In this document: one piece after another, positions 18,961 through 43,096 of the stretch
Position numbering within the stretch: position 1 is the first letter of the stretch
How the letters are laid out: each line of letters starts with the position of its first letter
Origin: Singulisphaera sp.
GTDB lineage: Bacteria; Planctomycetota; Planctomycetia; Isosphaerales; Isosphaeraceae
DNA: 64,000 nt
Reading direction: 5' to 3'
Assembly (NCBI GenBank): GCA_027451445.1
Contig: DAIDJG010000609.1
Span: forward strand, 1 to 64,000
Position numbers and translations under genes: made by a program
The notes under the pieces: model-generated
Told to the model about the DNA's origin: nothing
What the model saw: only the letters and a program-made list of their open reading frames with translations
Database searches by the model: none

Positions 18961-19530
18961 TTATTGCAGGCGATCATTCTGAAGGCGCGCGATCACGTCC
19001 CTGGCCTGCTCCGTCGTCAGGTTCTCGGGGCGAACCGCACCGAACTCCTCGCGGAGCAGACCTTCCATGTCGATGCGCTTCTTGAACGCAATCGCGTAGA
19101 TGGCTCTCACCTGGGAGGACGTCGCGGCACTGGCCGAACCGCTCTGTGGCGCGCTGTCCGGAACCGAGACGACTTCGGTCGAGCAGGCATGACCGTTGAC
19201 CGGGCTTGCGACGCCGTTGGTCCGAGCATGCACGCCATTGGAGTGCGCTCCCACGCCATCGGCCAATGCAGTCGAACCCAGTGCATGGCCACTGGCCGGC
19301 ACGGCGCCAGGAACCCGCCGCGTGGGCTCGGATTTGAGCCGTACCAGCTCGTCGGTAACGGCCTGTTGCGCGGCCGAGAACGCCCGCCGGATATGCGCTT
19401 GAAAGCCCTCCGGGTCATTTTGCAGCAGATTGGAGTCGAGTTCGACCTCGATGTTGCAGCTCGCCCCGGCCGAGCAGTAATTGGGCAGTCCCAGCTTGCG
19501 CGAGACGCCCACGTTCAATTTGAGGGGCAT
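18961..19530 (-). CDS. Unrecognised island protein with a C-terminal helical module
   Basis: The protein has 189 residues. Residues 1-65 form a compact alpha/beta domain (LKLNVGVSRKLGLPNYCSAGASCNIEVELDS) with Cys19 and Cys25. A low-complexity linker rich in Ala, Gly and His follows. The C-terminal 45 residues (SSQVRAIYAIAFKKRIDMEGLLREEF) resemble a short helical module found at the ends of phage and plasmid DNA-metabolism proteins. It is the next gene after the clamp-like gene, 68 bp away, which supports a DNA-linked role. That role is inference. Confidence 0.6.
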   Translation of the reverse strand: MPLKLNVGVSRKLGLPNYCSAGASCNIEVELDSNLLQNDPEGFQAHIRRAFSAAQQAVTDELVRLKSEPTRRVPGAVPASGHALGSTALADGVGAHSNGVHARTNGVASPVNGHACSTEVVSVPDSAPQSGSASAATSSQVRAIYAIAFKKRIDMEGLLREEFGAVRPENLTTEQARDVIARLQNDRLQ

Positions 19531-19598
19531 GATGTTTTCCTCCTACCCGGGCACGCGAGGGACGCTGGCAATGCAACGTCCCCTCGGTCCAACCAGGT

Positions 19599-21101
19599 TC
19601 ACTCGGTCACGTCCTGAAGCTGGAGTTGGCGGAGCGAGCGCAGGGTATCTTGTAAGAGTCGGCTCTGTTTGCGATGGCGCCGTAGCGAGATGACCAGTCG
19701 CCCGAAACGAGTCTTCGCATCGGAAAGGACTTCATGGAGTGCCTCGGCCTCCTTGATCAGGGCTGTCAGGCTCGTGGGCCCGGCGGTGTCGGTAGTGCCG
19801 GGGCCGTTGCTCGCTTCGCCGACTTTTCCGTTCGTCTGGGCCGCTGCCACGACTTGCTCGGCAACCGCGCCTGTCGAGGTCTTCGCTCCGTTTTTCGCGG
19901 TTGTGGTTCGCTCATGCACGACGGTTCTCTCTTTCTCGATCTCGTCCTCGCGTGCGACGGGTCCGGCGATGCCAGGAGAGGACTCGATCCTGATGGCATC
20001 GTCGGTGGCCTCGATGGCCGTCTCGGGGTTCATGGATTGCCAGACGTAGATGCTGCGGGCCACGCGGGCGGCGATCGGGGACTTGGCGTCCTGAATCTCC
20101 AGGTCCCGGAAACCGAGACGGAGAGCACGGAGCATGAAGTCGCGTTCACCGTTCACCCGCAAGGGAGCACCCGTGAAGCGAGAACGGTTCAACACCAGTT
20201 CCGTGGTGCGTTCCGGATCACCACCCCGGGTGCGGAGCGTAACGCGACCGTTGAGTTCGAGCGTCAACGGGACGTACGTGTCGTCGGCCTGCGGTAGTCC
20301 CGGCAGCGTGTCGGCGAGAAACGCAGCATCCGAATCGTCGATCGTCAGCCGAGTGGCTGCGGTTTCGGGACCGGGTACGATGTGCGAGATTTCCGGGAAG
20401 CGCACGTCCTTCTGAATCTCCAGAAACAAGGTCCACGAGCCGGCTCGGAGCACGACGTGAGTATCGGTCTTCGCGATCGAGATGGCACGATCGCGCGGCA
20501 GCATGGGAGAGGCGAAGATTGGCGCGTGCCTGACAAGCACGTCGTCGTTCCAGGGGAAACGAAGCCCTCCCTGGATCAGGAGCTGGCGACCGTCGGTTGC
20601 AACGATGTCGCTCGTCTTGCCTCGAAGCTGGATAGTGGATAGTGCGTATCGCGTGTCGGCCTCGTCGCACGTCTCCGAGGCAGCGGTGAGCGCGCCGAGT
20701 AGCTCCGCCGGTGCCGTTGACCGCGATTCCGGAAATGTGGGAAACGCGGCGACGGTACCGGCCTCCGGCACAGCGTACTCGCGCGACTGGGAAGCGTGTC
20801 GATCCTGCCAACGGACAACGGTGCGGTCAGGGGCGGCGGATTCGAGAACGACGGAGGTGTCCTGTTTGCCCTCGAAGTCCGCCAGCGCGTCCAGCGGCAG
20901 CAGGATCGTTTCGCGCGGCTCGGCACGGCCGGACAGCGTACAGGTGACGCCGAGCGCCTCGTACCGATGTTTCACGCATAGCTGCGTTCCCTGGGCTTCG
21001 AGCACCAGTGGGGGAATCGGGCTCCGATGAGCGATTCCCAAGACGACACGACGGAACACCTGACGAAGGTTGTGCACTTGACGACGGGTGAGCGTTATCA
21101 C
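19599..21101 (-). CDS. DNA sliding-clamp (DnaN)-like protein with C-terminal coiled coil
   Basis: The start at the GTG at 21101 follows GGGAGACCACC, and the longer ORF start is rejected. It encodes 500 residues. The middle (about 120-210) carries the most telling clamp pattern: DEADTRYALSTIQLRG and DIVATDGRQLLIQGG, as in DnaN domain 2 (TRYxLNGV, VATDGHRL). Residues about 1-110 and 230-360 have the strand-rich, variable look of clamp domains 1 and 3. The usual DnaN C-terminal MPMR motif is absent. Instead a long linker and a helical coil follow (about 435-500). It may be a dedicated clamp for the element or a non-replicative relative. Confidence 0.65.
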   Translation of the reverse strand: MITLTRRQVHNLRQVFRRVVLGIAHRSPIPPLVLEAQGTQLCVKHRYEALGVTCTLSGRAEPRETILLPLDALADFEGKQDTSVVLESAAPDRTVVRWQDRHASQSREYAVPEAGTVAAFPTFPESRSTAPAELLGALTAASETCDEADTRYALSTIQLRGKTSDIVATDGRQLLIQGGLRFPWNDDVLVRHAPIFASPMLPRDRAISIAKTDTHVVLRAGSWTLFLEIQKDVRFPEISHIVPGPETAATRLTIDDSDAAFLADTLPGLPQADDTYVPLTLELNGRVTLRTRGGDPERTTELVLNRSRFTGAPLRVNGERDFMLRALRLGFRDLEIQDAKSPIAARVARSIYVWQSMNPETAIEATDDAIRIESSPGIAGPVAREDEIEKERTVVHERTTTAKNGAKTSTGAVAEQVVAAAQTNGKVGEASNGPGTTDTAGPTSLTALIKEAEALHEVLSDAKTRFGRLVISLRRHRKQSRLLQDTLRSLRQLQLQDVTE

Positions 21102-21514
21102 GGTGTGGTCTCCCAGTGAACGGAACGGACGGATACGGAACACGCGGGCGTCGCACGGAAGCCCGCGTGAGATCGGGTTGAACGCGGAGGTCGCTTCGCA
21201 CGGAAGCGCTTTCGACGTCGCGATGCCGATTTGACCGGTAATCACCGGCTCGTCGGCACGAAGACCGCGAGGCGGTGGCTTTGCGGGACATTCGGGACAC
21301 GGTCACGATGACTTGGACGCGCGCAGCCAGGTCGACCGGCGGCCAATTGCGCCGTGTGTTGTCAAGGTGTGTATGATAAGAGTGGGTGACACGGCGATGG
21401 ACGGCGTGGTCTGGGTGTGCACTCCGTGTTTACATGACCCGTCGTGACCGCCTGGAGAAGGTGTGTCGTTCCCAGTCTCCTGAATCCGTATCAGGAGAGC
21501 CGAGGAGTCCAATC
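21102..21514. promoter_or_regulatory. Divergent intergenic region between the clamp-like gene and a secreted-protein gene
   Basis: About 410 bp. A TATGAT hexamer at about 21371 could be a -10 element for the rightward gene, but no good -35 is spaced correctly. It should also hold the promoter of the leftward clamp-like operon. No coding signal is seen. Confidence 0.35.
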
Positions 21515-22144
21515 ATGGGGCGAAATCGCTTGAAACCCTGGACGCTGCTCGTCGTCGCTCTCGCGTTGCACATGGGGAACGGCGCGGAAGCCCAGACCTA
21601 TTACAGGACGGTTCCAGGCGGCAGTGCGATTCCGTACGGATACGGGATCGCAAACGGTCAAATCGCACCGGGCTATCAGGCCGCGTACCAGTTCTACCCC
21701 CGTCCCTACTACTACGGGTTTCCGAGGCAACGTCAGACTGTGACGGACTACCAGTCGCTGATCAACGCGGTCACGTCATTGCCCGGCTGGTACGGACCCG
21801 CCCCACGACCCGCTCGCCCCGTCGCGCCTCAGCCAACGATAGCGCGAGGTGAGTTGATCAACGATGATGGCACGGTACTGTGGCCCAGCGCAACGCCGAG
21901 CGATTCACGGGTCCTGACCACGCGCCACGCTGCCGAGGAAGCGGTCAGGATCGCCGTCCAGGAGCAGCGCAAGGAGGGCCAGGCCACCATTCGTCACGTG
22001 GCCGACGCCCGCAACAAACTTGATGCCTTCGCCCGTGATGCACTGCCCATCCTGAAGGCCAAGAACGCCGCCGATTCGGCCGGGCTGGAGCGGTTCATCG
22101 TCGAGCTGAAAAAGACGCTCGCGACACTGGCGGTCCACTATTGA
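21515..22144 (+). CDS. Secreted protein with Tyr/Pro-rich segment
   Basis: The ATG at 21515 follows CGAGGAGTCC. The 209-residue protein has a cleavable signal peptide (LLVVALALHMGNGAEA, likely cut near AEA/Q). A Tyr/Pro/Gly-rich stretch follows (about 28-80: YYRTVPGGSAIPYGYG, FYPRPYYYGF). The C-terminal part is helical (about 135-209: TTRHAAEEAVRIAVQEQRK). No enzyme motif is present. It is one of the few rightward genes in the island. Confidence 0.65.
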   Translation: MGRNRLKPWTLLVVALALHMGNGAEAQTYYRTVPGGSAIPYGYGIANGQIAPGYQAAYQFYPRPYYYGFPRQRQTVTDYQSLINAVTSLPGWYGPAPRPARPVAPQPTIARGELINDDGTVLWPSATPSDSRVLTTRHAAEEAVRIAVQEQRKEGQATIRHVADARNKLDAFARDALPILKAKNAADSAGLERFIVELKKTLATLAVHY

Positions 22145-22182: not shown

Positions 22183-23253
22183 TCAGGGCTTTCCCAGGGC
22201 TTCCTCAATCGACCGTTCGAGTTCAGGATCACTCAGCTCCAGTCCGACGAGAGTGCCGTTCCTGCCGATCAGGAAGTTCTCGGGTAGCGTCACCACGCCG
22301 AATCGTGTAGCTATATCATCGCTTTCGTCATCGCTCAGCAGGTTTGGCCACGTGATTCCGTGCTCGACGAGCACGTGACGAACGGTGGGCAACACAGTTT
22401 TGGCTTCCTTCACGTCTTCGTGATGGGCGTCGAGGTTGACGCCGATGACCTCGAAGCCGCGTTTCTCGTATTTCGTCGCCAGCGCGGTGAGTCGCTGGAA
22501 CACGGTCACACTGGGGGGACACCAGGTCGCCCAGAAGTGAACCAGAACGACCTTCCCCGTCAGGCCGCCCGAGCGGAATCTCTGGCCTTCGACGTCGGTT
22601 CCCTCCAGAGAGGGTGCCGGCGTGCCCACCAGGTTGAGCATGCGCCGCCGTTGCTCGAAATGAGACCTGACCACAGGATCGCGCGCCTCATCGCACAGTA
22701 GCGTGCAGGCGCGTTTGGCCACGGCGTAGGACTTCAGATGGATCAGCCTCTGGAGTGTCACCTCTCCCAGACCCAGGCTTCGATCCTCCGCGGACGGTCC
22801 GTCCTTCGGTTGTGCCTGTTTCGCTCGACGCAGGAAAGCGGCGAGAACATCAAGTGCCTCGACCGACTTTCCCTGGTCGATCCTGGCGATCACCATGGCG
22901 TGTGTGGCCAGTGCCAGCACGTCGGTCGGTGTGTTCGGGTCGGCAAGGCAACGATCGGCCGCTGGGGCCGCCGCAGCGAGCAGGTCGCGGTCGATCGCGT
23001 GCTGAAACAATTCGCGGTAGGTACGCGTTGCGTCGTCACCTGTCTTCCTCGCCGCCAGTGCGGTCAGGTCGGCAATCCGCTGTACTTCGAGTTCGTCCAG
23101 GCGACGGTTGTAGAATGCGTCAAGAGCTTCGAGCGAGTCGAAGGATCGAGCGGGCTCCTGGACCGCCTGCGCTCGGGCTGTTTCTTCCTGAATCGCGGCC
23201 CACGAAGCGAACAGGGACACGATGAAAGCGAGAACTCGACCCGTCATTTTCAT
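22183..23253 (-). CDS. TlpA-like thioredoxin-fold secreted protein lacking the second active-site Cys
   Basis: It encodes 356 residues from MKMTGRVLAF, where a signal peptide begins. The N-terminal half is helical (about 40-205). The C-terminal half (about 212-352) is a TlpA/ResA-like thioredoxin domain: VGTPAPSLEGTDVEGQ, then VVLVHFWATWCPPSVTVF, and the cis-Pro loop VVTLPENFLIG. The active-site motif reads WCPPS, so the resolving Cys of the usual CPPC is missing. This would block normal disulfide exchange but could still allow mixed disulfides or thiol-peroxidase-like chemistry. It points toward the envelope. Confidence 0.8.
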   Translation of the reverse strand: MKMTGRVLAFIVSLFASWAAIQEETARAQAVQEPARSFDSLEALDAFYNRRLDELEVQRIADLTALAARKTGDDATRTYRELFQHAIDRDLLAAAAPAADRCLADPNTPTDVLALATHAMVIARIDQGKSVEALDVLAAFLRRAKQAQPKDGPSAEDRSLGLGEVTLQRLIHLKSYAVAKRACTLLCDEARDPVVRSHFEQRRRMLNLVGTPAPSLEGTDVEGQRFRSGGLTGKVVLVHFWATWCPPSVTVFQRLTALATKYEKRGFEVIGVNLDAHHEDVKEAKTVLPTVRHVLVEHGITWPNLLSDDESDDIATRFGVVTLPENFLIGRNGTLVGLELSDPELERSIEEALGKP

Positions 23254-23423
23254 GCCGATTCTCCGTTGAGGACGGAGTCGCTGGCGTCTCAGGTGCACCG
23301 CGGAGGATGACCCCGGTTAGCACGCCAGCTCTTCTCCGCACCTGCACATGGTAAAGCTTCCAACGACCCTTCGTCCATGAAGGGATGGTCGGACGTTGGG
23401 GCGGCGGTTGCGGAGAACCGCTG

Positions 23424-23738
23424 TCACGAGCACGTACGGAAACACGACACCGGTTCACGGTCGGCCGTGACCGTCGAGGCGGCGAAAACGTCGTCCGGCT
23501 CGACGATGAAGTAGACGTCGCAGATTTCACATTCACCGAGCGGCAGCTCACCGTCTGCCACCGGGCCAGGATATGGCACGGAATTGCGGCAGAATGGGCA
23601 CTCGATGCACAGCGTCAGCTCCTCGGGTTCCAGGTCGGTCGGCACCTCTGGGACGACCTGGAAGCCGAGCAGATGGACGTTGCCAAGTGGTTCGCCGAGC
23701 GCGTCGGCAACAGCGCATTCCAGTTGAGCTTGGGTCAC
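23424..23738 (-). CDS. Small zinc-ribbon-like protein
   Basis: The start is the GTG at 23738 with GAGGAGAATCTC upstream, not the longer ORF. In 104 residues there are two cysteine pairs: LCIECPFC and GECEICDVYF. These probably fold as a four-Cys zinc ribbon. The N-terminal part is helical and acidic. It is one of several small paired-cysteine proteins in the island. Confidence 0.6.
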   Translation of the reverse strand: MTQAQLECAVADALGEPLGNVHLLGFQVVPEVPTDLEPEELTLCIECPFCRNSVPYPGPVADGELPLGECEICDVYFIVEPDDVFAASTVTADREPVSCFRTCS

Positions 23739-23878
23739 GAGATTCTCCTCATGGGTTTGATGGCGAGCGTAGTCGTGCTCAGGGCGCACGACGGCGCTTT
23801 CCAGGGGTTCGTCGACGTTTGATCTGGGTCGGTGGGAGTGCTAACGATGTGAACTTCGGGGCAATTCGCAGGTCGCTG

Positions 23879-24778
23879 TTACAACAGAGACGGCACCGGC
23901 GTGGGCCTGGAGCTGCCCTTCTCGGCCGTCAGCTCGATGACCCTGGCACGCAGGTGTGCCGATGCCGCGGCGAACGCAGTTTCCAGCTTCGCCTTCTCCT
24001 CACCGAGGTAATCGGCGTAGGCTTCGACCTTGAAACGCGTCTGCCGGATGCGCTCGGCTGCGCGCTCCAGAGTATCGGGACGCGTTTCCTCGCCGAACGC
24101 GGCGATCGCCATCTCGTGTTCGCTGATCAGCGCCTCCAGTCCCGAGGCCACTGACTCCTGGACGCTCCGGTCGCCATGCGGCGTGCCCGCCGGTACCGGA
24201 AAGCGGCGCAGGCTGCCATTGATCCGCACGATGAACCGGCCGATGCGGTCGATGAATTCGGTGTGCTCGCGAGGTACGAAGTAACAGCCGCCGTTGTCAC
24301 GGATCGGGAACAGGTCCGCCTTTCGCTCGAACAACCGCTGGATGACCCGCGTCACGTCGCTCCCATTACGCGTCACGATGCACTCGTCGAGGGCCTCCTG
24401 GGCCAGCGTCGCCAGGCCCGGCAGGTCGCATCGTACTTTTCCTGTGGCCTTCTCCAGGGTGAGCACCGTCTCCAGGTCGTACTGGAAGTGGTCGCCCTCC
24501 CGGTGCTCCGTTGTGAACTGGAACTTGATCGCATCCGCGTCCTCGGCGAGTTGGCGGATGATGCGGTCCTCACTGAGCTTCTTGCAGGCACGCGAGAACG
24601 CATGGCGCGGCGCCAGTTCGCGTGCCACAGATTCGTCGAGGTCGCTGTCGCGCAGGGCCTCGATGAGCGCTCGGTACGCGATCGACGTTCCCGAAGCGCT
24701 CCAGGTGATGATTTCGCCCAGCAGCTTCGTTCCGGGTGCAACGGGGTATACGCCGTTCGTTTTCGTGGCAACGGACAT
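23879..24778 (-). CDS. Hypothetical protein, possibly DUF6744-like, about 300 residues
   Basis: The start MSVATKTNG follows GAGGAGCACC. The 299-residue soluble protein has an N-terminal alpha/beta region (IAYRALIEALRDSDLDESVARELAPRHAFSRAC). A central strand/helix part contains NGGCYFVPREHTEFIDRIGRFI. A long C-terminal helical coil follows (about 235-290: AAERIRQTRFKVEAYADYLGEEKAKLE). I recall similar proteins in planctomycete accessory regions under a DUF label, but the match is from memory and uncertain. It follows the VWA gene by about 120 bp. Confidence 0.6.
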   Translation of the reverse strand: MSVATKTNGVYPVAPGTKLLGEIITWSASGTSIAYRALIEALRDSDLDESVARELAPRHAFSRACKKLSEDRIIRQLAEDADAIKFQFTTEHREGDHFQYDLETVLTLEKATGKVRCDLPGLATLAQEALDECIVTRNGSDVTRVIQRLFERKADLFPIRDNGGCYFVPREHTEFIDRIGRFIVRINGSLRRFPVPAGTPHGDRSVQESVASGLEALISEHEMAIAAFGEETRPDTLERAAERIRQTRFKVEAYADYLGEEKAKLETAFAAASAHLRARVIELTAEKGSSRPTPVPSLL

Positions 24779-24897: not shown

Positions 24898-26316
24898 TCA
24901 GAGGGAAAGCACGCGTTCCACGGCCACCTCGGACGTGGCAAGCGAGGGCAGCTCGTGCACCTCGTCGCTGATCGTGGTCAGGTCACCCGGAACGCTGCCG
25001 ATCACAAGCGTGATGACACGAGCCCTCACTGCCCGCTTCCAGACCAGGAACGCTTCCTGATCCTCCAGGGGAATCTGGCAGACGGCGTCGGTGATGATGA
25101 TCACGTCGGTGTCGCCCCGTGGGGCCTTGAGTTCGTTGTAATAGCGCGGCAATTCGCGGACCGGCACGTCGAGCGTGCTGCCGCGACCCAGGAATGCTTC
25201 CAGCCAGTCGGCCAGTGCCTGTTCGTTCCACCGTCCAGGCGGCAGGGGAAGTAATCGCTCGCCGGTGTCCCCGCTGTAGGCGACCAGGCCGCACCAGCGC
25301 CGTTGCTGACGGGCGATCCAGGCGAGAGCAAGGGCAAGCGCCTTGGCGGTATGCACCTTCTCGCCTTCCATGCTGCCCGACTCGTCGACCGTGACCAGGA
25401 TCGGTCCCTTGCCCACCGGATCGGTGGCGTGGTACTCGCGACAGAGCGTCTGGCGCTCGGCGAGACGACGTAACGTATCCAGCTCGCACTCGGGGAGCGC
25501 GAGCCTCGCCAGCTCGGTGGGCAGGAGTCGGCCGATGTCGCCGCCGGGCTCGACGCCCACGACGTCATCAAGGCCATGAGTTGTCTTGCGGCGTTGCCTG
25601 GACTGGGCCACACGGCGATAGCGGCCCGCCAGTTCGGCAATCCGACGCAGCCTGGGACTGGCCCGCACTCGGCGGAACAGCGCGGCGATGGCCTTCGGGT
25701 CGTTGCTCCCTGGTCCTCCGGGTCCCAGGCCGGCTGCTGCGGCGACTTCCATGCACTCGGACACCTCGGCGCTCGCCTCGGTCAGGGCCTTGCACACGGC
25801 GCGCAGGACGGCGATCTCCTCGTCGGATTCGGACGCCCCGCTTACGGAATCCGGTCCCATGGCGTCCCCGTCCGGCTTCTTCGGTTCCTGCTCGTCGCAC
25901 AGGTTAGAAAACTGCTCGGCGTAGCTAACCGCAGCGAGGGCGGCGGCCGCTTCCTGGAGCATGGTCGTCGCATGCAGGGCGTGGTACTCCGGCGTCTCCA
26001 GGAGCTGCGTCAGGAACTTGTGGCGCAGCCGGTCGGCGCAGTCGGGCATCAGCCTTGCCTCCGGAGCGAAGGCCGCGGTGTGAAAGTCGGCCATCGCGTA
26101 AGCGCCGAGGCACCGCCTGGCCAGTGTGGCATGCTCGGCCAGCAGATCGGCACCCCGACGAAGGGCCCAGTCGTCGATCTCGAGCGCGTTCGGGTTGGTG
26201 ACTCGCGGTGAACGCCGCTCTCCGCTTTCCGGAGGATGGGTGAGTGGATCGGCCCGAGTAATCGGTTCGTCGGTTCCCGTCAGGTCGAGCATGCGGAGTA
26301 GTTCATCACGATCCAT
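24898..26316 (-). CDS. VWA-domain protein (ViaA/CoxE-like), partner of the MoxR ATPase
   Basis: The protein has 472 residues from MDRDELLRMLD, with AAAGGACC upstream. The N-terminal half is helical, with an acidic Ser-rich linker (about 130-150). The C-terminal part (about 285-470) is a von Willebrand A domain. Its metal site DESGSMEGEKVH is complete, with the later IIITDAVCQIP strand and a Thr/Gly segment. VWA proteins of this layout pair with MoxR-type AAA ATPases (RavA-ViaA, CoxD-CoxE) in chaperone or metal-loading roles. The AAA gene lies two genes upstream in the same operon. Its start overlaps the zinc-ribbon gene by 11 bp. Confidence 0.85.
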   Translation of the reverse strand: MDRDELLRMLDLTGTDEPITRADPLTHPPESGERRSPRVTNPNALEIDDWALRRGADLLAEHATLARRCLGAYAMADFHTAAFAPEARLMPDCADRLRHKFLTQLLETPEYHALHATTMLQEAAAALAAVSYAEQFSNLCDEQEPKKPDGDAMGPDSVSGASESDEEIAVLRAVCKALTEASAEVSECMEVAAAAGLGPGGPGSNDPKAIAALFRRVRASPRLRRIAELAGRYRRVAQSRQRRKTTHGLDDVVGVEPGGDIGRLLPTELARLALPECELDTLRRLAERQTLCREYHATDPVGKGPILVTVDESGSMEGEKVHTAKALALALAWIARQQRRWCGLVAYSGDTGERLLPLPPGRWNEQALADWLEAFLGRGSTLDVPVRELPRYYNELKAPRGDTDVIIITDAVCQIPLEDQEAFLVWKRAVRARVITLVIGSVPGDLTTISDEVHELPSLATSEVAVERVLSL

Positions 26317-26755: not shown

Positions 26756-27886
26756 TCAGACCTCGTGAATGCAGGCGAGTCGGATACGACGCATCTGGTC
26801 GCGGACGTAGGCGCGGGCCTTGGAGGCTCGCGGGTCGCGTTCGATGGCGCTCAATTGCTTCTCGATCTCCCCGAGCTTCGCAGTGGCGGTCGTCGCCTGC
26901 CCGAGGTTCTTGACGTCCGTGGCGGAGAGGATCTGCTCGGCCTCCATGAGAAGCTGGTTGACGCGCATGCCCGTGGGATTCGCGATACGGGCGATGACCT
27001 GGGCAGACTTTTCGGGCTGCTCGACCGGATCGTCCCAAAGGACGCTGGCCAGAACTTCGAGGTGCTCCGGGGATACCCGTTCGGCTCCGGCCAGGTACGC
27101 GTACGCCTGGGTGGCACCCACGGCCTTGTACTGGCGTCGATCCCCCGGTTGGATACCCTCCTTGGTCAGGGTGCGCAGGATCGTCTCCAGGGCCTCGACT
27201 GCATCGTCCGACCATGGCAACGCCCCTGCCGCTTTGTGGGCGGCGTCGACCTCGTCGGCCGTGATGGACGTCGAGAGCTTCGGACCGTGGTCCCGGGTCC
27301 AGAGGAGCCGTCTCCGGCCTGCCAGCGTGGCAATCGGGCGAACCGTGCGGCGGAACAGGAACCGATCGAGCAGTGCGGTCAGTTCCTTCCCGGTCTCGGG
27401 AGAGGGCCACTCGTTTGAAGCAGCGACGCAGAGCCGCAAGGGCACGCGCAGGGTCTCGCCGTCGTTCTCGAAGACGCGCTCGTTGAGGATCTTGAGCAAG
27501 GTGTTCAGGATCGCGGAGCTGGCCTTCCACACTTCGTCGATGAACGCCAGCTCGGCCTCGGGGAGCTTGCTCGTCGTGACGCGGCGGTAGCGGTCCTCCT
27601 TCAGCGCGGTAATCGACACCGGCCCGACAACCTCTTCGGGGGTGCTGAACTTCGTGAGCAGGATGGCGAAGCGGCGGCCGTGCATCCAGTTCATGAGCGA
27701 GTCGAGAAGCAGGCTCTTGGCGCAACCGGGAGGCCCAACCAGGAGCAGGTGTTCCTGGGCGATCAGGGCCGTGAGCGCGAGGTCGATCTCGTCGTCGCGC
27801 TCGATGAGCGCCTCGGACAGCTCGCGGCGAGCCGTCATGAACTTGTCCTGGACGGCGGAGTGGGTTTCGGGGCTGAGAGTCTTCAT
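26756..27886 (-). CDS. MoxR/RavA-type AAA ATPase
   Basis: The 376-residue protein has Walker A at 51-58 (GPPGCAKS), Walker B at 113-118 (LAFIDEVWK) and sensor 1 Asn158 in CVAASNEWP. Arginine-finger candidates lie in LLDRFLFRRTV. The C-terminal part (about 300-376) is helical. It resembles RavA more than the shorter classic MoxR. Such ATPases form hexamers that remodel or load clients together with a VWA partner, here the gene at 24898. The start MKTLSPETH is chosen because the upstream nine residues are not domain-like. Confidence 0.85.
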   Translation of the reverse strand: MKTLSPETHSAVQDKFMTARRELSEALIERDDEIDLALTALIAQEHLLLVGPPGCAKSLLLDSLMNWMHGRRFAILLTKFSTPEEVVGPVSITALKEDRYRRVTTSKLPEAELAFIDEVWKASSAILNTLLKILNERVFENDGETLRVPLRLCVAASNEWPSPETGKELTALLDRFLFRRTVRPIATLAGRRRLLWTRDHGPKLSTSITADEVDAAHKAAGALPWSDDAVEALETILRTLTKEGIQPGDRRQYKAVGATQAYAYLAGAERVSPEHLEVLASVLWDDPVEQPEKSAQVIARIANPTGMRVNQLLMEAEQILSATDVKNLGQATTATAKLGEIEKQLSAIERDPRASKARAYVRDQMRRIRLACIHEV

Positions 27887-28275
27887 GGGGATGGGTTCCT
27901 GAGTGAGTGTCAAAGATCATCAGTTCAAAGCGCACGTTGCACGTCCCCCACGTCGGCACATGGGAGGTTCGGATTAATTGGGTTTCCGGACGACCACCGC
28001 CCGGCTCATATCCGACGCTTGCGACGTGAATCTCATCCCCGTCGACCAGGAACGAGGGTTCAACGCTATTGCTGGCGCGGAACGGACGCTACGAGAGATT
28101 GTGGGCGGATGGGCTGACGAGCAAACGCTCGACGGGGAAGAGCGATGTGTCGCGAAGCAATGGGTTTCCCCGACGAATCCAGGTGACTTCGTGCAGCGTT
28201 CCTCGACACCGAAATGCTGAAGGTGCGCGAGCCGCGCACGAAGCGATCGGAGGTGTAGGTGCGGGTCGATTCTGG
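27887..28275. other. Intergenic region before the AAA gene
   Basis: About 390 bp without a credible gene. The plus-strand ORF 27978-28220 has no ribosome site. This is the longest gap in the leftward gene train and probably holds the promoter of the AAA-VWA operon. Confidence 0.35.
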
Positions 28276-29396: not shown

Positions 29397-29948
29397 TCAC
29401 TCCGAGCGGTCGGTCTCATCCGTCGGCACGATGATGATGCCCTGGTCGTACGGATTCCTGGGATTTTCGTCGTCAGTGATCCTCGTCAGATACGCGCTGT
29501 CGAAGCCCACCAGTTCGCCGGTTTCGAGCTTGCGCACCTCAAGCTCAACCGGCGTTCTGGTATCGGGATCGACGATCTCGACGGTCTCGACAAACCGGGA
29601 TCGGACGGATTTGAACACCGGTCGGACATCATCAGCGCCCTCGACGACCGGGATCTCGTACAGCGCGTTCCCGTCGCCGTCCTTCACGACGGCTGCATCT
29701 GAGGCTACAGCCATGGTGCAGATCTCGCTGGACGTGCGATCGTACATCGAGACGGACCATTTGCCGGACGTGTGGTACTCGATCACGATATGGGTTGCAT
29801 CATCGGGTTTGTCGCCGTCCAGGAGCAGGCGAACGCCCGTGTCCTCGACCTCAACGGTAACGACCCGCCGCGCCCTTTCCGAACGATCAATCTGCTCGGT
29901 CTCCGGGTCGAAATCGTGCACGAGCAGTTCCGCGATCTTGCTGATCAT
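29397..29948 (-). CDS. Hypothetical protein, 183 residues
   Basis: GAGGAACGACC precedes the ATG. Its first bases overlap the stop of the upstream gene (ATGA), so the two are coupled. The protein is acidic and strand-rich (VVTVEVEDTGVRLLLDG, THIVIEYHTSGKWSVSMY, FVETVEIVDPDTRTPVELE), suggesting a beta-sandwich. No cysteine pairs or catalytic motif are seen. Confidence 0.55.
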   Translation of the reverse strand: MISKIAELLVHDFDPETEQIDRSERARRVVTVEVEDTGVRLLLDGDKPDDATHIVIEYHTSGKWSVSMYDRTSSEICTMAVASDAAVVKDGDGNALYEIPVVEGADDVRPVFKSVRSRFVETVEIVDPDTRTPVELEVRKLETGELVGFDSAYLTRITDDENPRNPYDQGIIIVPTDETDRSE

Positions 29949-31458: not shown

Positions 31459-31668
31459 TCAGCCGAGGTAGGGCATGCCCTGGGCAAAGGCGCGATCATC
31501 GCCCTCCAGTTCGGCGTCGAGTCTGAACGCGAGAATCGGTTCCTGGGCGATCCGGAGTTCCGGCTCGTGAATAGCGTGAGGGCTGTTCAGTTCGATGAAG
31601 AAGATCTTCTGAACGAGCTGGTCGTCGGTCAGCTCATTCACGAGTTGCCTGAGCTGGTGAAAGTTCAT
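31459..31668 (-). CDS. Small hypothetical protein, 69 residues
   Basis: The start MNFHQLRQLVNELTDDQL follows GGAGGGCTTC. The remainder (IFFIELNSPHAIHEPELR, GDDRAFAQGMPYLG) is soluble. It overlaps the 3' end of the larger upstream gene by 35 bp in another frame, which suggests coupling. Confidence 0.5.
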   Translation of the reverse strand: MNFHQLRQLVNELTDDQLVQKIFFIELNSPHAIHEPELRIAQEPILAFRLDAELEGDDRAFAQGMPYLG

Positions 31669-32803
31669 GAAGCCCTCCATCACCGTCGCGCTGGCCTACG
31701 GGATCTCGGGGTCTCGGTCGCGGACGTCGCGATCTCATCTCGCCTTCCAGGAACGCGCTGAGCGGTCCTTTCCAGCAACCCCATCGCTCGGGATCAAGCC
31801 CTTCGGGAAGCTTGTCGTACTGGTCTCGGAGCGCGGTCCATTGCGGACACCGGCGGTACGCCCGCCGGCCACGAAACTGCTCGTGGATCTTCGTAATGGC
31901 GTAGAGCCGGGCCAGGCATTTGCGAGACCCCGTCTGAGGACTGTTCGCCGTGCTATAGAGCCGGCCGCTCCAGGCCCCGCGATAGCCCCCGTGCTCGTAA
32001 CGGCGTGGCTCCCAGTCGTCGGCATCGTGGCAGTCCTCACGATCGGGTAACGCAAAACGAAGGAACGGTGCAGCCGTTGTCAGGTCGTTGATCAGCGCCT
32101 GGGACAGCGCGTCGATCCGCGTACGCATCTCGGCTGCAGCGCGGCCCAGCTCTTCGGCGTGAGCGATGCTGGCCGTCTTGTTGTCTTGCCGGGTGCGCCG
32201 CGCCTTGGCCTTGGAGGGACTGAACTTCACGAGCGCGTAGTTCGTCCTGGTGAACGGGGCCACGACGAGGCTCGATTCCTCGAAACCATCGTCGGAGCGC
32301 AGGTCCTCGGCCACGTCACGATGCATCAGGATGGGGCCAAGCTCGTGGGTCAGCCTCGCGAGAGCCGTAACGCGCGTGTCACCTCCCAGAGCGTGCAACA
32401 CTCGCTCAGGTCCGATACCTTCGCCAAGCTTCTGAGACGCGATCGCGAGGTCGAGCAAAGGGCGTTCGTGCACGAGGTACTGAAGCGGTGCAGGTTGAAC
32501 GAGCTTGTTGTCCTTCCACTCGGACTGGAGCTTCACGCCCTCGACCCGCGTCAGGAGCGAATGCGCCGCCGGATACTGAGCTTCGAGCGCCGCGACGATC
32601 TCGGCGCGATTGTGTCCGGCGACGAAAGCATGCTCACGCAGGTCCTGGAGATCGCGGCTGATCTGCCAGATCTGCGTGCCCGAAGGCAGACTCGGCAGAT
32701 CGTGAGGGTGTCGACGACGATGGCTTTCCAGCCGGCCCGTAAGCTGCTTGACCAGTTTCGCACCCACGATTGGGTTCGAGACGCTGGCGGTCGCAATGGA
32801 CAT
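31634..32803 (-). CDS. Hypothetical protein, 389 residues
   Basis: This is the largest unrecognised protein of the leftward train. It starts MSIATASVSNPIVGAKLVKQLTG. Much of it is helical with alternating Arg/Asp (IWQISRDLQDLREHAFVAGHNRAEIVAALEAQ, TALARLTHELGPILMHRDVAEDL). The middle contains a basic stretch (SKAKARRTRQDNK). The C-terminal part is aromatic and Arg-rich (DWEPRRYEHGGYRGAWSGRL, RCPQWTALRDQYDK). No signal peptide is present. It follows the 254-residue protein by 64 bp. Confidence 0.55.
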   Translation of the reverse strand: MSIATASVSNPIVGAKLVKQLTGRLESHRRRHPHDLPSLPSGTQIWQISRDLQDLREHAFVAGHNRAEIVAALEAQYPAAHSLLTRVEGVKLQSEWKDNKLVQPAPLQYLVHERPLLDLAIASQKLGEGIGPERVLHALGGDTRVTALARLTHELGPILMHRDVAEDLRSDDGFEESSLVVAPFTRTNYALVKFSPSKAKARRTRQDNKTASIAHAEELGRAAAEMRTRIDALSQALINDLTTAAPFLRFALPDREDCHDADDWEPRRYEHGGYRGAWSGRLYSTANSPQTGSRKCLARLYAITKIHEQFRGRRAYRRCPQWTALRDQYDKLPEGLDPERWGCWKGPLSAFLEGEMRSRRPRPRPRDPVGQRDGDGGLHELSPAQATRE

Positions 32804-32867
32804 CGTGATGTTCCTCCGAAAGAGGGGCGGCCTGAGTGGCCACCCCTGAACTCTGAAACGATCTTGA

Positions 32868-33632
32868 TCAGCCGGCGAGGAGCTTCAGTTGCTCGCGAAC
32901 CACGCGGTTGTCGATCACGAGGCCGAGCTTGTCGTAGAGCGCCGTGAGCCAGACGCTCGTATCGTCGTTGCGCTGCATCACCTGCTCGATGACCAGCGTC
33001 TTGCATTCCTGGCTCAGGTCGGGGCGGTCGTGCTGCGAGCGGATCGCTGCCGCCATGCGGGCGACGGCCGCCTTGCGCGCGAGCCGCTCTTCGATCTGCG
33101 CGATGAGGTCCTTGACGGACTGCGTCGTGGGCCACGTCGTGTGAACCGTTTCCTCGTGGGCGCCCGATTTGCCATACGAGATGGAGCGTTTGTCGATGAC
33201 GAGTGTCACGAACGCGGTACAGCCGATGCCCTTGCGGGCGCTCGTTTCGTCGCTGGCCTCGACCGAGACCGTCACGTCGCACGGCTTGCCGTTGAACGCT
33301 GTGATCACGTCGGCGGCCAGACGGGCCTTGACGGCCTCAGGGCATTCAGACGCCAGTTCCAGGGTCGCGGTGCGCAGGTTCTCCAGCTCGGCTTTGAGCT
33401 GGTTCCGAAGCTCGCCAAGCTGGTCATCGAGATCGCGGGCCTCGTCGAGCTGGACTTCCAGGTCGGCGCGGAGCCGGCGCTTGAGGTTGGTGTACACGAC
33501 GTCGGCGACGTGGTCGATGGAGAGCTGGGTGTTGATTGACCCGGCCGGCAGTTCCAGGGAAGGACCGGCGGGTACGATGCTCGCGATTTCGGTCTTGGGA
33601 GCGGAGGCGTCGGACGACTTGCGCGAAGCCAT
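32868..33632 (-). CDS. Hypothetical coiled-coil protein, 254 residues
   Basis: The ATG at 33632 has GAGGAGAACACC upstream; the longer ORF start is unsupported. A Ser/Pro-rich start is followed by a coiled coil (about 55-100: LEVQLDEARDLDDQLGELRNQLKAELENL). Next comes a beta strand region (CDVTVSVEASDETSARKGIGC, AFVTLVIDKRSISYG). A C-terminal helical part follows (VKDLIAQIEERLARKAAVARMAAAI). It probably forms oligomers. No family is recognised. Confidence 0.55.
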   Translation of the reverse strand: MASRKSSDASAPKTEIASIVPAGPSLELPAGSINTQLSIDHVADVVYTNLKRRLRADLEVQLDEARDLDDQLGELRNQLKAELENLRTATLELASECPEAVKARLAADVITAFNGKPCDVTVSVEASDETSARKGIGCTAFVTLVIDKRSISYGKSGAHEETVHTTWPTTQSVKDLIAQIEERLARKAAVARMAAAIRSQHDRPDLSQECKTLVIEQVMQRNDDTSVWLTALYDKLGLVIDNRVVREQLKLLAG

Positions 33633-33806
33633 GGTGTTCTCCTCGTACGGAAAGTGCTCAGGATTGCACAAAGCAGCGGACTCGGCGCGCACGCGACCGG
33701 GCCTGCCACACGGAGGCTCGTCAAACAATTCTCGAAACCGGCCTGCATCATGGACCGGAAGGAGCCGGTCGATACCGGTTAGCCGGGACTGGAAACACCC
33801 GAGCCG

Positions 33807-34024: not shown

Positions 34025-34288
34025 TCAATCAGCCGACGACGGCGCATTCGCTCCACCGCTGAGGAATGACTGGATCGCGTTCACGAGTGCGGACGCGGCT
34101 TCAACGGGAACTTCCATGTGGCAGGCGTCCGTGAGCCTGCCGCGCGCTGTGATCGGAGAGAGGCGCATGACCTCTTGCCCCTCCCCGCTGCGATTCACGA
34201 TCGCGATTCCGGTTTGCTTGCCATAGCGGTTCCGCCCACGATACGTCAGTTCGGGAACGGAACCGCCGGGATACTTGATCTCGATCAT
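34025..34288 (-). CDS. Small hypothetical protein, 87 residues
   Basis: GAGGTGAGACG precedes the ATG. The protein has a strand-rich N-terminus (IEIKYPGGSVPELTYRGRNRYGKQTGIAIVN) and a C-terminal helix (EAASALVNAIQSFLSGG). It lies 14 bp after the preceding gene of the train. No family is recognised. Confidence 0.5.
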   Translation of the reverse strand: MIEIKYPGGSVPELTYRGRNRYGKQTGIAIVNRSGEGQEVMRLSPITARGRLTDACHMEVPVEAASALVNAIQSFLSGGANAPSSAD

Positions 34289-34302
34289 CGTCTCACCTCG
34301 TT

Positions 34303-34638
34303 TCAGTCATCCTCGCCGGGAACCGGGATGTCACGGTCCTCCCACGAGGCACTGTGCTCGTCCAGCCGCCTTGCCACCCGCCGCTCGGTGTTCTCGTCTT
34401 CGTAAATCGCCCGGTGGTGCTCCAGGCGGTCGTTTGGGTTCCTGCCTTCGTATGCGACCAGCTCGAACTGGCCGAACCCGTTCGTGCTCACTTCGTACGC
34501 GCGCTCACCATCGGGGCCCTCGTACCAGGTCAAGATTTCGCCGCGCTGGTGGAGACCCAGCGCGCGGCGGAATTCATCGGCCTGCTCGTCGAGAAAGCGC
34601 AGGACCGCCAGGTCATCCGGCCGGATCGACTTGCTCAT
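34303..34638 (-). CDS. Hypothetical protein, 111 residues
   Basis: The track gives a 487-residue ORF here, but only the last 111 residues, from MSKSIRPDDLAVL, form a coherent protein. The upstream part is out-of-frame translation of the next gene. The start overlaps the end of the upstream gene by 26 bp. The protein has a helical N-terminus (FLDEQADEFRRALGLH), strands (EILTWYEGPDGERAYEVS, QFELVAYEG) and an acidic C-terminus. Confidence 0.5.
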   Translation of the reverse strand: MSKSIRPDDLAVLRFLDEQADEFRRALGLHQRGEILTWYEGPDGERAYEVSTNGFGQFELVAYEGRNPNDRLEHHRAIYEDENTERRVARRLDEHSASWEDRDIPVPGEDD

Positions 34639-36678: not shown

Positions 36679-37358
36679 GCCGAATTCTCCTTGTCTCTGG
36701 GAGCGCGAACGTGATCCGGCAGAGCAGCAACGCTACCGGAACGAGCATCGACGGCTTTGCTTGACTCGGTGTGATCGACGGCAGGCGCCCAGCCCTTCGG
36801 CATAAGCCGAAACCGGCGGACGTTTCGGAGAAAGAACCTCAGGGCGCGATCGGGAAGGCCCACGGTGCGGAGTACGGTGTGTCGAAGGGCAAGTCGCCAC
36901 TCATGCCACCCGCCCCGAGCGCGCTTGCAGCCGCGACACGCCACCTCGTACTGGTCCGTTGCGAAATGGCAGCTGGGCGGCCCGTCCGTTCGTAGTTCAT
37001 CCTGAACGGCCTCCGGCACAGCCAGATCCGCCTCCAGTCGCGCGAGTTCGGCGCGGAACGCGAGAAGTTGACGCTGCATTGCAGCACGCTCCTCGACGGC
37101 GAGCTTGATCTGATGGCGAACGTCACCGACGTACTCGGCGACGAGCCCATCGACCGTGCGGCTGCGCGCTTCGCTCTCCGAATCGGACACATCGAGCCCG
37201 CAGATTCGGTACAGGTTGTTGATGAGCCGCAGGATGTAATCGCTGAGCCCAATCTCGATGGCCTCAACCATGGCTTCAGTTGCCAGGTTCGGAGCGACCC
37301 TGGCGCGGGCGGGCATGGGTCCGAAGTAAAGGGGCCTGCCCGATTCCTCGAACATCAT
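36675..37358 (-). CDS. Hypothetical protein, about 227 residues
   Basis: The ATG at 37358 follows AAGAGGATAG. The N-terminal part contains RPLYFGPMPARARVAPN. A helical, coiled region follows (about 80-130: QIKLAVEERAAMQRQLLAFRAELARLEADL). Then comes CHFATDQYEVACRGCKRARGG, a possible two-Cys site, and an RFFLRNVRRFRLMPKGWAP segment. A related but frame-broken segment occurs just upstream at about 37445-37560. It is coupled to the methyltransferase-like gene. Confidence 0.5.
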   Translation of the reverse strand: MMFEESGRPLYFGPMPARARVAPNLATEAMVEAIEIGLSDYILRLINNLYRICGLDVSDSESEARSRTVDGLVAEYVGDVRHQIKLAVEERAAMQRQLLAFRAELARLEADLAVPEAVQDELRTDGPPSCHFATDQYEVACRGCKRARGGWHEWRLALRHTVLRTVGLPDRALRFFLRNVRRFRLMPKGWAPAVDHTESSKAVDARSGSVAALPDHVRAPRDKENSA

Positions 37359-37646
37359 TGGCACTATCCTCTTGTCGGTGGCTGGCAATGGAAACGCTCG
37401 CTCAACGGCCTCGAAACCGTCAAAGCTCGCAGCACGAAGGTTGATCATCCGGCCGGGGGCACCCAGCCTCTGGGCATGCGCTGAAACCGGGCGGTCGTTG
37501 CGTCAGAAGAAGCGCACGTGGCCGCAGGGCATGCCCATGGCGCAGGACGTGGTCGTTGGGCGCGAGTGGGTGCTAGAAGACCACACGGCGTCCCAGAACC
37601 GTGACAGGAATCGGCCGGTCCCTGCGACGCACGATGGCATGATGGG

Positions 37647-37758: not shown

Positions 37759-39001
37759 GGTGCTGTATCCGTAAGCCGTGAAACCTGGCCTCAGCCGTTC
37801 GGTGGTGAACAATAGCACAGAAGCTCTTTCAGCGTCCATATGTGGTCGGTCAACCCCGCCGCCATTGCGGGAGTTCGAGGAGTCCAAACGCGACCATGAG
37901 CAGTCGGCGGACAGAGCTTGATCCGTAAGGCACTGTGGGGACGCACGAGATTGTAAACCGCATCCTCGAAATCAAGGTGGTGCTGGAGCGAGTCCTTCCG
38001 CTTGGAATGTGACAACGTCTTGCGCACCAACCGACCGTTGTTTTGACGCGACGTCAAGTTATCACGCTCCACATAAGAGGTGTTGATCTGGGAACCGCAG
38101 CGATCGGTCTGCATAATCCGGATGAGATCCTCCTCGGTGCCGAACAGGATCTGCCGCTTGACTTCGACCACGCGCCCCTCTTCGCGATCCTTGCGGACCT
38201 GAGCGTAACGCAGGTTCGGGTCCACCAACCGTCGCGGTTCTTTGCGCGGTCGCCCGCGGCCACGTCGGACGGGGGGTGGCTCCGGGGTGCTGTAAGTGGC
38301 GATCAGCGCGGCGACATAGGCTGGCAGTTCGTCGCTGGTGAAGAACGGTGCGCGACCATTGGTCCGAGCCTTGAATTTGGCCAGAAACGCTCGTGCTTCC
38401 AGCTCGCTACGATCGTGGCTGAGGTGGTTGACCACGCGCAACCGGCTGGGGAGGGCCAGGGCGCGCCAGACCCACATGTCGCCGACGTCCGGGGGATCTT
38501 TCGATTGGCGGTGGACTTGCTTTTTTTGATAAACGTCCACAGTTCGTCAATTTGCACTTGGGTGAGCGAGAGATCGCGGACAAGCCCGGCGCTGACTACG
38601 GCACTATGCTGTCCTGCCAATGCGAGCCAATGCAACACGCGGTTCGGAGTGTGGCCTGTAAGACGGGCTACCGCCCTCACGCTGTTGCGCTCGCTCAGAA
38701 GCGCCAGCGCTTCAAGTACGGTCGCGCGCGAGCTTCGCAGAGTCTCGAATAACGTATGCTTGTCTATGCTAAACGTATGCCGGCACGTCGCGCAGTAGTA
38801 ACGCTGCTCCCTGTAGCTGAAGACCTTGATGTTGCCAGCTCCCGCGATCCCGTAATCGGGGCAAGCCTTGTGGTCGCACCATTGCCGCTCAGGTTCCATG
38901 ACGCATCACCTCCAGCTAACGATGATACGTCAGATGGTCGTTCACAGCCAACCGCAACTAGGTACAAACGATCAGTATTCACGGCTTACGGATACAGCAC
39001 C
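37759..39001. mobile_element. IS1-like insertion sequence, 1243 bp
   Basis: The two ends are perfect inverted repeats of 24 bp beginning GGTGCTGTATCCGTAAGC. They are flanked by the 8-bp duplication CGAACTCG, the size typical of the IS1 family. Inside lie two overlapping transposase frames joined by a run of seven A residues. The element is complete, with no internal damage seen, so it may still be active. It interrupts a gene of the island near its 3' end. Confidence 0.92.
37791..38899 (-). CDS. IS1-family transposase, two frames joined by -1 frameshift
   Basis: Frame A (38899-38303) has an N-terminal zinc ribbon (WCDHKACPDYG, YYCATCRHTF), a helix-turn-helix and the first catalytic Asp in VQIDELWTFIKK. 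Frame B (38540-37791) carries FFTSDELPAY and the glutamate in NTSYVERDNLTSRQNNGRL, completing the DDE triad. The two overlap at ATCAAAAAAAGC (38521-38529 region). There a -1 slip changes IKKS to the QKKQV frame, the classic IS1 InsA-InsB mechanism. Confidence 0.88.
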
Positions 39002-39551
39002 CGAACTCGCGCATCGCGTTCAGGTCGGGTTTGTAGACGAGATCGTTTGGCGGTTCGCCCTCGACCCACAGGTATGAGGGCAAGTCGTCCGGCCGCATGT
39101 ATCGAATCGCGTCCGTTTCTCGGGCAAGTTCGAGGACGGCACAGCTCTCGTCCTGGTGGGCGACTCGCGTGATCTGGGGCATTCGCGCAACCATCTGTCG
39201 AAGATGGCGCAGACCGAGGTCGACGAGTTGGCCGACACCGAAGAGGATGACCCCCTGGTCGCGTCGACCCGTGTCCTCTCCCTTGAGGCCGAGCCAGCAA
39301 TCGAACTCGCCGCGTGCCATACCTCCGTCCTCGGCGCAGATATGAAACCAGCCGTTCGGCGGGTCCACGAGCGCGGAGAAGTTGCCGACCTGGGGCATGA
39401 AGTCTAGCTCGGTGATGGCTGGCAGGAGAGCATACCCTGCCAGGGTGTAGAGGTCGCAATGGCCGCAACCGTTGTCGCCGGTAATGGCGCACACGGCGCG
39501 GTGGACCGCCTCTGCGGCGGTGTCTCGCAGGTGTAATGGCGGTAATGGCAT
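38979..39551 (-). pseudogene. Island gene truncated by the IS1-like element (5' part)
   Basis: The gene has GGAGGGCC upstream of its ATG. The 190-codon truncated frame ends in ten residues encoded by the IS (GCCIRKP). Without the IS the product would be 217 residues. The visible part has ITGDNGCGHCDLYTLAG (two Cys), then a beta/alpha pattern with WFHICAEDGGMARGEFDCWLGLKG and a basic C-terminal region. No family is recognised. The last 33 or so native residues are lost from the truncated protein. Confidence 0.7.
39002..39009. repeat. Right 8-bp target duplication of the IS1-like element
   Basis: CGAACTCG, matching 37751-37758. Confidence 0.9.
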
Positions 39552-41783: not shown

Positions 41784-42518
41784 TCACGAAGCGTGCGCCG
41801 TCGCCGGTACGTCCGGTCGGAGCCGCGTTGAGCGGATATCCCTCGCATCCGGCTTCCGATGCCGTTCACTGTGGGCGTGCGGCATCGCGGTGCCGCTTGG
41901 CGACTCCTCGCCCTGGAACTGGGCCCAGCTATCGGCCAGCGCCGCGCGCGAGATCGACACCGCCGCAGGGGTCACGCCCAACTCTCGCGCGGCCGAGCCC
42001 GTCTCGTATCCCTCGGCCAGCAGCAGGGCCATCTCGCGCTTGCGTTGAGACAGCGTGGCCAGCCAGGCCGGGAGGTCGATCCGGAACGCGGCCTGAGTTG
42101 CCGGGTCGACGCGACCGTCCGACAGGAGAAACTCGTGCCAGGGTCCCTCGTTGACCACCGAACCGGCTCGCTGATTGATGCGCATAATCTGCACACCGGC
42201 CCTCTTGGAGGCTCGGTAGACGTCGAGACTACGGCCGGTCTTTGAGGTGCCCATCGCACGGCCGTTCTGGACGTAGCGCACGGCGTTGGTGACGATACCC
42301 GCAGGACCAACAACCACAGGGTCCTGGCCACGCCGTGCGAGGCCGACCCAGGCGTGCCAGCACGCGGCCAGGACGTCGGTCTCGAACTCGTCACGATACC
42401 GTTTTGCGACGCGAGGGAGATGGAAAGTGATCGCTCGGCGCATGATGGGAAGATGATCCGTGAACCGCTGTTGAAGCTGCGCCAGCGTGCAATCAATTGG
42501 AAGAAGCGGGGTAATCAT
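41784..42518 (-). CDS. Sigma-factor-like protein with C-terminal helix-turn-helix
   Basis: The start MITPLLPIDCTL follows AAGGAGATCGCC; the long extension in the track is rejected. In 244 residues a helical N-terminus (ITFHLPRVAKRYRDEFETDVLAACWHAWVGL) resembles a region-2-like bundle. The C-terminal half has LSQRKREMALLLAEGYETGSAARELGVTPAAVSISRAALADSW, a sigma-70 region-4/LuxR-like helix-turn-helix. It may direct transcription of the element's own genes. A short inverted repeat lies 33 bp upstream of its start. Confidence 0.65.
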   Translation of the reverse strand: MITPLLPIDCTLAQLQQRFTDHLPIMRRAITFHLPRVAKRYRDEFETDVLAACWHAWVGLARRGQDPVVVGPAGIVTNAVRYVQNGRAMGTSKTGRSLDVYRASKRAGVQIMRINQRAGSVVNEGPWHEFLLSDGRVDPATQAAFRIDLPAWLATLSQRKREMALLLAEGYETGSAARELGVTPAAVSISRAALADSWAQFQGEESPSGTAMPHAHSERHRKPDARDIRSTRLRPDVPATAHAS

Positions 42519-42550
42519 GAGGCGATCTCCTTGTGAGGGACCGCCCCCGA

Positions 42551-42577
42551 GGGACGGTCCAGTTTTGGAACCGTCCC
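42551..42577. repeat. Inverted repeat upstream of the sigma-like gene
   Basis: GGGACGGT and ACCGTCCC are separated by 11 nt. The position, 33 bp before the start codon of the sigma-like gene, suits an operator or leader hairpin. Confidence 0.5.
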
Positions 42578-42877
42578 CTTCAGGACAGAGGAAGAAAGAG
42601 CCCACGCATTGTCGCAACGCGAAGCAATGAAGCAGGCCGGCGATTTGAAACGTGTCAAACCAACTACGACATAGGTACTGGGTCGCCCGCACGCGTCCTG
42701 GACTCGCTTGTTTCGGTGATGTGTTCCCGCGAGTCGCGTCACCTTCAAAGAACAGCATGCGAAGCCGACCACTCCTCGGACGGTCGATGAAAATACCGGT
42801 CCGACGGATGCCGACATAATCGGATCATTGGAGAAAACGAAGCGAGGTTGATCTGGCCAGCTTGTTCCATCGCTGGG

Positions 42878-43096
42878 TCACGTTGTATTCGGGTTCCTCT
42901 CCGTTTGGACGGGCTCAAGAGAATCGGCCCTGTACTCGCCAGAAGGCGATCGAGCGAGAAGCGGGTTGTCCTCGGCGTCCAGGCTGACTGACCGGTGTTT
43001 GCTTGACCGCGAGAGGTCACGATACCGGAGCCAACGTTGCGCGATCGTTCGGCCGATCAGGATCGCAAACTCACTCATTAACGAGTCAATCTCCAT
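42878..43096 (-). CDS. Small hypothetical protein, 72 residues
   Basis: GAGGAGGCACCC precedes the ATG at ideal spacing. The N-terminal half (MEIDSLMSEFAILIGRTIAQRWLRYRD) is a single amphipathic helix. The rest is polar and disordered. It lies between the integrase-type gene and the sigma-like gene, in the same direction. Confidence 0.55.
   Translation of the reverse strand: MEIDSLMSEFAILIGRTIAQRWLRYRDLSRSSKHRSVSLDAEDNPLLARSPSGEYRADSLEPVQTERNPNTT

Follow-up and report, generated by a model that had tools for sequence, protein, structure and literature searches.

What is a paralogue of the bacterial sliding clamp doing beside a chaperone-like ATPase pair, in a block of small and tightly packed genes of a planctomycete? 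The question is raised by a stretch of 64,000 nucleotides (hereafter the window) of contig C609 (69,556 bases) from a 10.9 Mb Singulisphaera draft genome, in which a block of leftward genes spans about 17 to 45 kb. We propose, tentatively and as somewhat short of an even chance, that the core of this island is a clamp-handling module borne by mobile elements, composed of a dedicated clamp paralogue, the small partner P158, a DUF6744 adaptor and an exchangeable AAA+ engine, here of the RavA-ViaA type.

The protein that the initial annotation had called DnaN-like is, by similarity across three clamp domains, a beta-clamp homologue, predicted to slide on DNA as a ring dimer and to bind polymerase. 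The profile of its family matched beta clamps of the PDB (E about 1e-6, profile positions 29-341) and also the processivity factor phrog_947, most of whose length is covered by a relative, and the cleft motifs TDGxxL and FP...P are kept in the alignment. The three-domain profile and the cleft motifs are shared with DnaN, but the island clamp is a divergent paralogue with a C-terminal tail, located in an accessory cassette and not next to dnaA. P158 ends in a Q..AI..I motif, which we take to resemble the tails of phage annealing proteins; a search for P158 relatives in viral contigs returned none.

The proposed RavA/MoxR ATPase and VWA protein were likewise confirmed. The former matched PF20030 (4e-53) and the RavA model NF010054 (1.5e-57), the latter the ViaA model (2.9e-18), and the pair displays the motifs of an active MoxR-VWA couple: invariant Walker and arginine residues in MoxR and a conserved MIDAS (DxSxS...T...D) in the adjacent VWA protein, which is 61-69% identical to its relatives in two other loci (L032 and L047). 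Both missed the equivalog cut-offs (195.8 versus 681 bits for RavA, 66.3 versus 500 bits for ViaA), and by sequence they belong to the RavA/ViaA superfamily, not to the same family. MoxR-VWA pairs act as chaperones that use ATP to remodel their targets (PMC7159879, PMC3893208), the Escherichia coli representative being the co-chaperone RavA-ViaA (PMC3893208, PMC9489729). The island pair resembles it in adjacency and model matches, but comes with an additional DUF6744 partner, a sliding clamp and a mobile setting instead of respiratory or lysine decarboxylase partners. An AlphaFold2 model of the DUF6744 protein (pLDDT 84.6) gave no fold match in the PDB and structural matches only to uncharacterised phage and halovirus proteins; because this model is without a solved relative, the adaptor role is a proposal from gene order. 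The structure model of the VWA protein was of low confidence and was not used.

The argument for a common function comes from the neighbourhood of the clamp. Thirty-nine planctomycete clamp loci, including the window, were compared by clustering of open reading frames and hidden Markov model (HMM) scans of the fetched loci (numbered L), and 37 were assessable, L039 and L041 lying at contig edges. The usual cassette reads DUF1257, DUF2997, Ycf46-like AAA, P324, P81, ZN98, clamp and P158, and all cassette markers found share the strand of the clamp. An AAA+ module stands within about 5.5 kb of the clamp in 32 of the 37 loci; in 28 loci it is the Ycf46 module (Ycf46-DUF1257-DUF2997-P324), at most 3.2 kb away and on the same strand. 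The window carries MoxR-VWA-DUF6744 in its place and L047 the VWA-DUF6744 part, while a phrog_1297-type MoxR lies near the clamp in L066 and a VWA-like protein in L048. The Ycf46 set, which occurs with DUF1257 (Ycf35) and DUF2997 in phages and plasmids, thus occupies the place of MoxR-VWA beside the same clamp family, but belongs to a different AAA+ clade; at E 1e-60 the window genome contains no match to it. One planctomycete genome (G407, L138-L141) holds four complete Ycf46-clamp cassettes.

The clearest case is L049, an island of the same genus that is colinear with the window over the sigma-like gene (50% identity) and the genes at 38979 (75%), 34303 (60%), 34025 (58%), 28949 (71%) and 28276 (56%). 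After this colinear part, L049 continues with DUF1257-DUF2997-Ycf46-P324, as opposed to MoxR-VWA-DUF6744 in the window, which is a swap of the AAA+ module at the same position. The conserved unit is an AAA+ module, an adaptor and a clamp, with the AAA+ module exchangeable. The engine beside this one clamp family varies (RavA-ViaA, another MoxR-VWA pair, Ycf46-DUF1257-DUF2997), and so does the adaptor, which is either DUF6744 or the DUF3150-like P324. The sigma-like gene of L049 is, in addition, followed by a short frame that resembles a clamp. Directly beside this sister island (L049:1-8805) are a CRISPR array and cas-like genes (Cas2, Cas1, Cas7, Cas8, Cas5 and Cas3, by reading of translations).

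The same components recur outside the planctomycetes. MoxR, VWA and DUF6744 (hereafter the trio) span actinobacterial, firmicute and cyanobacterial plasmids (Alicyclobacillus, Brevibacillus, Rubrobacter, Streptomyces, Nocardia, Pseudanabaena) as well as phages, being found in 7 of the 11 viral contigs that bear DUF6744, and in Moorella phage MTATph1, where DUF6744 was detected by HMM. Near the DUF6744 gene of a halovirus no MoxR or VWA partner was recognised, HCTV-1 genes 40 and 41 matching no model. On four plasmids (two of Alicyclobacillus, one of Brevibacillus, one of Rubrobacter) dnaN lies less than 10 kb from the trio; among 72,556 plasmid records, 362 carry a dnaN relative and 16 DUF6744, the latter with one query. 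The Alicyclobacillus plasmid dnaN is nearest to Bacillus-type clamps, whereas the planctomycete family matches the PDB beta clamps only by profile, at E about 1e-6, so that the two were probably recruited separately. Plasmid relatives of P324 are annotated as DUF3150 in Manganitrophus, where they stand with Ycf46-DUF1257-DUF2997; in Caballeronia such a relative lies between MoxR and a VWA-like gene, and in Simplicispira beside a VWA-like gene. Together with L049 and with L125-L127, where DUF6744 is paired with Ycf46-DUF1257-DUF2997-P81, these arrangements indicate that engines and adaptors combine in several ways. Two further phage-like settings were seen: MoxR, VWA and DUF6744 near a terminase-like protein in planctomycete genome G243 (L123:7096-18658), probably a prophage, and a phage-like contig (L154:4872-7247) with a 791-residue MoxR-like frame that may contain an intein and lies upstream of both DUF6744 and a DnaB-like gene.

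A clamp beside swappable ATPase machines suggests that mobile elements spread a kit for handling clamps that has so far gone undescribed. In such a kit the MIDAS of the VWA protein would grip the adaptor or the clamp, VWA and adaptor would deliver the clamp, or a complex bound to it, to the AAA+ ring, and the MoxR hexamer would spend ATP on remodelling adaptor or clamp, so that the element's own clamp could be loaded, unloaded or freed of its partners while the element is replicated or repaired. A more specific claim, which we regard as doubtful, is that the exchangeable engines (RavA-ViaA, Ycf46-DUF1257-DUF2997, other MoxR-VWA pairs), with DUF6744 or a DUF3150-like protein as adaptor, are dedicated to loading or unloading the sliding clamps of mobile elements, which would be a way of clamp loading outside the DnaX/RFC clade. 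Phages and plasmids commonly carry MoxR-VWA, Ycf46 and DUF1257 modules; the recurrent association of these modules with a sliding clamp, and the exchange of engines next to a single clamp family, give them a concrete, testable substrate and would connect AAA+ co-chaperones with the replication or repair of mobile elements. In the open-access literature searched, neither DUF6744 nor DUF3150 is mentioned, and MoxR, VWA, DnaN and plasmid are never combined.

Several observations weigh against a clamp-handling function. On most plasmids with the trio dnaN is absent from the stretch examined, and pAACI01, a related plasmid of Alicyclobacillus, carries dnaN but lacks the trio. The clamp locus L050 is decayed, and in L132, L133, L134 and L137, which have both clamp and P158, P158 adjoins a PDDEXK nuclease (called from the Pfam match of a relative and from reading of translations) and no AAA+ module was seen in the part examined. 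Eleven of the 29 strong Ycf46 loci in relatives are without a clamp match nearby, hence the Ycf46 module also occurs independently of the clamp. Profile comparison detected no homology between P324 and DUF6744, and P324 was accordingly rejected as a DUF6744 homologue. The DUF6744 fold matches nothing solved, and the contact between clamp, DUF6744, VWA and MoxR is predicted from gene order. Replication genes, moreover, are commonly co-located on mobile elements for other reasons.

Because the cassettes sit in defence islands, the main rival is anti-phage or anti-plasmid defence, in which the clamp would mark foreign forks and the AAA+ protein with its adaptor would stall or dismantle the replisome. 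When 20 cassettes were compared with 20 control stretches of the same genomes, 110 flanking proteins matched 72 PADLOC families at 1e-15 and 110 control proteins matched 3, a comparison in which several families can match one protein and which uses one control region per locus and heuristic gene calls. The case for defence depends mostly on this comparison. Families listed include DISARM DrmA/DrmD, type I restriction, a BREX helicase, reverse transcriptase and Cas1; CRISPR-Cas genes, read from translations, adjoin the cassette of L049 and that of L036, and several genomes have two to four cassette copies. However, defence islands double as landing sites for mobile elements, MoxR-VWA-DUF6744 itself travels on phages, phage-like contigs and plasmids with primase, SSB and dnaN, and the 32 proteins of the window gave two weak PADLOC matches (two families, one member each), none of them to MoxR. 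We consider defence rather unlikely, yet a serious competitor.

Known MoxR-VWA pairs serve varied complexes (PMC7159879), and the trio could instead assist, as a general chaperone, in assembling a different large complex of the element (for partition, conjugation or the virion), the clamp being a separate replication gene that shares the neighbourhood. Plasmids of Streptomyces, Nocardia, Pseudanabaena and Rubrobacter marinus, with the trio and no clamp in the stretch examined, agree with this; the close adjacency of trio and clamp in the window, in L047 and on two Alicyclobacillus plasmids, and the swap of engines at one position next to a single clamp family, do not, and we judge such a general role unlikely. 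A mosaic of unrelated insertions without common function appears very improbable. The island does contain two insertion sequences, about nine proteins without relatives and a thioredoxin gene between conserved neighbours, but colinearity with L049 and the conserved order of AAA+, adaptor and clamp genes in many genomes contradict a mosaic for the core; it may apply to the small genes at 29397-33728 and 35857-37448.

The island was also compared with described systems. The MoxR-vWA ternary conflict systems (Kaur et al. 2020, PMC7159879) share the Pfam bpMoxR match and a third component beside the pair, but here this component is DUF6744 and not VMAP, iSTAND, FtsH or a beta-propeller, none of which was found in the island proteins scanned; the word "clamp" is absent from that paper. 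PRTRC-type plasmid systems (E1/E2/JAB, ParB) share the plasmid setting of the trio, and on Pseudanabaena plasmids DUF6744-MoxR-VWA lies near Mov34 and ThiF. As the initial annotation had stated, there is no PRTRC match, at least for the ten main island proteins searched with the models of proteins A-F, ThiF and ParB at E 0.1 (the other small proteins were outside this NCBIfam scan). Both kinds of system were rejected, since the features that define membership are lacking in the proteins scanned. The annotation was also right that standard phage or integrative and conjugative element modules are missing: Pfam scans of the island proteins revealed no terminase, capsid, relaxase or type IV secretion genes, and a serine recombinase only. 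The Anabaena plasmid pANACY.02 (L209:3320-9893) has E2-like, Mov34 and ThiF genes with dnaN and a gamma/tau gene after them, an arrangement that links a plasmid clamp to a ubiquitin-like set.

The island is accessory, as its patchy distribution indicates. Clamp relatives occur in 18 of 58 other related genomes and VWA relatives in 4, one of them close, and the window MoxR scored 463 bits against 274 for the next best in these relatives. Of 392 genomes across the phylum, 8 contain DUF6744 and 17 the clamp family at 1e-10; counted among the 17 are a match of 7e-11 that is probably the housekeeping DnaN, at 1752-2549 of a complete chromosome, and two weak matches from another class. These figures led us to reject an ordinary core block present in all relatives, the alternative raised at the outset, whereas the expectation that clamp and AAA/VWA genes keep their neighbours in unrelated strains was supported. 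The unit that is conserved consists of AAA+ module, adaptor and clamp, and the claim that the whole 24-kb island is one functional, transferable unit is unsupported, the core being smaller: six further genes recur, all in one same-genus island, and for nine of 25 queried island proteins plus the recombinase no relative was found in the fetched loci. That the island moves between genomes is suggested by its patchy occurrence and by the recombinase. At the recombinase end, no word of at least 13 bases is shared between 45100-46300 and 1-43000 that could represent attachment repeats, and a search for an empty site in the same-genus genome found none, the flanks not occurring together there.

Table 1. 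Features of the island, in window coordinates.
Position	Strand	Feature	Basis
18961..19530	-	P158, small partner gene directly downstream of clamp; no Pfam family	beside clamp in many planctomycete loci
19599..21101	-	beta sliding clamp homologue, GTG start, conserved C-terminal helical tail	profile, cleft motifs
22183..23298	-	TlpA/AhpC-type thioredoxin gene, probable insertion, outside unit	Pfam scan; ZN98-clamp gap
23424..23789 (true start probably 23738)	-	ZN98, small Cys-rich protein, conserved upstream clamp neighbour	locus comparison
23879..24778	-	DUF6744 protein, proposed adaptor, GGxYFVP motif	PF20529, E 1e-6
24898..26316	-	ViaA-type VWA protein, complete MIDAS	ViaA model, alignment
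26756..27913	-	RavA-type MoxR AAA+ ATPase, Walker A/B and Arg residues conserved	PF20030, NF010054
28276..28881	-	small Zn-ribbon-like protein, conserved at module boundary	56% over 68 aa in L049
28949..29200	-	small protein kept in sister island	71% over 83 aa in L049
29397..31208	-	four small, closely packed genes, relatives not found	Pfam scan, fetched-locus comparison
31634..33728	-	two larger proteins without assigned family	no Pfam family; no relative in fetched loci
34025..34638	-	two small genes (34025, 34303) kept in sister island	58-60% in L049
35857..37448	-	two genes without assigned function, relatives not found	domain scans, fetched-locus comparison
37791..38899	-	IS1-like transposase, two broken frames	Pfam scan
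38979..39551	-	190-aa protein, best conserved gene of sister island	75% over 183 aa in L049
39824..41278	-	DDE transposase	PF01609, 3.5e-12
41784..42518	-	sigma/LuxR-like helix-turn-helix protein, recurrent neighbour of clamp loci	relatives in L049, L056, L134
43188..45068	-	large serine recombinase, right end of island	Recombinase 2.4e-19, Resolvase 3e-13

The remaining features are collected in Table 1. The genes are indeed leftward and closely packed, with GAGG/AGGAG ribosome sites and ATGA overlaps, and the large serine recombinase announced at one end is present. The sigma-like protein gave weak matches only (GerE 0.0025, sigma70-ECF 0.039), and a methyltransferase domain, also announced, was found in none of the island proteins scanned. 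DUF6744 had been overlooked in the initial annotation, two "genes" are insertion sequences, and about nine small proteins are without relatives in the fetched loci. The thioredoxin gene is a probable insertion because it separates ZN98 and clamp, which are adjacent in other loci (gap of 2.1 kb in the window versus at most about 0.6 kb in other ZN98-bearing loci). Searches of the window for tRNAs and known RNA families gave none. According to domain scans, the flanks are ordinary chromosome, with response regulators, a hydrolase, a DUF1559 pilin-like protein and a glycosyltransferase. To the left of the island, 13661-18856 encodes XRE-type helix-turn-helix proteins and coiled-coil lipoprotein- or membrane-like proteins; one helix-turn-helix gene, at 15102-15353, shows 74% identity to a gene of the same type near the clamp in L039.

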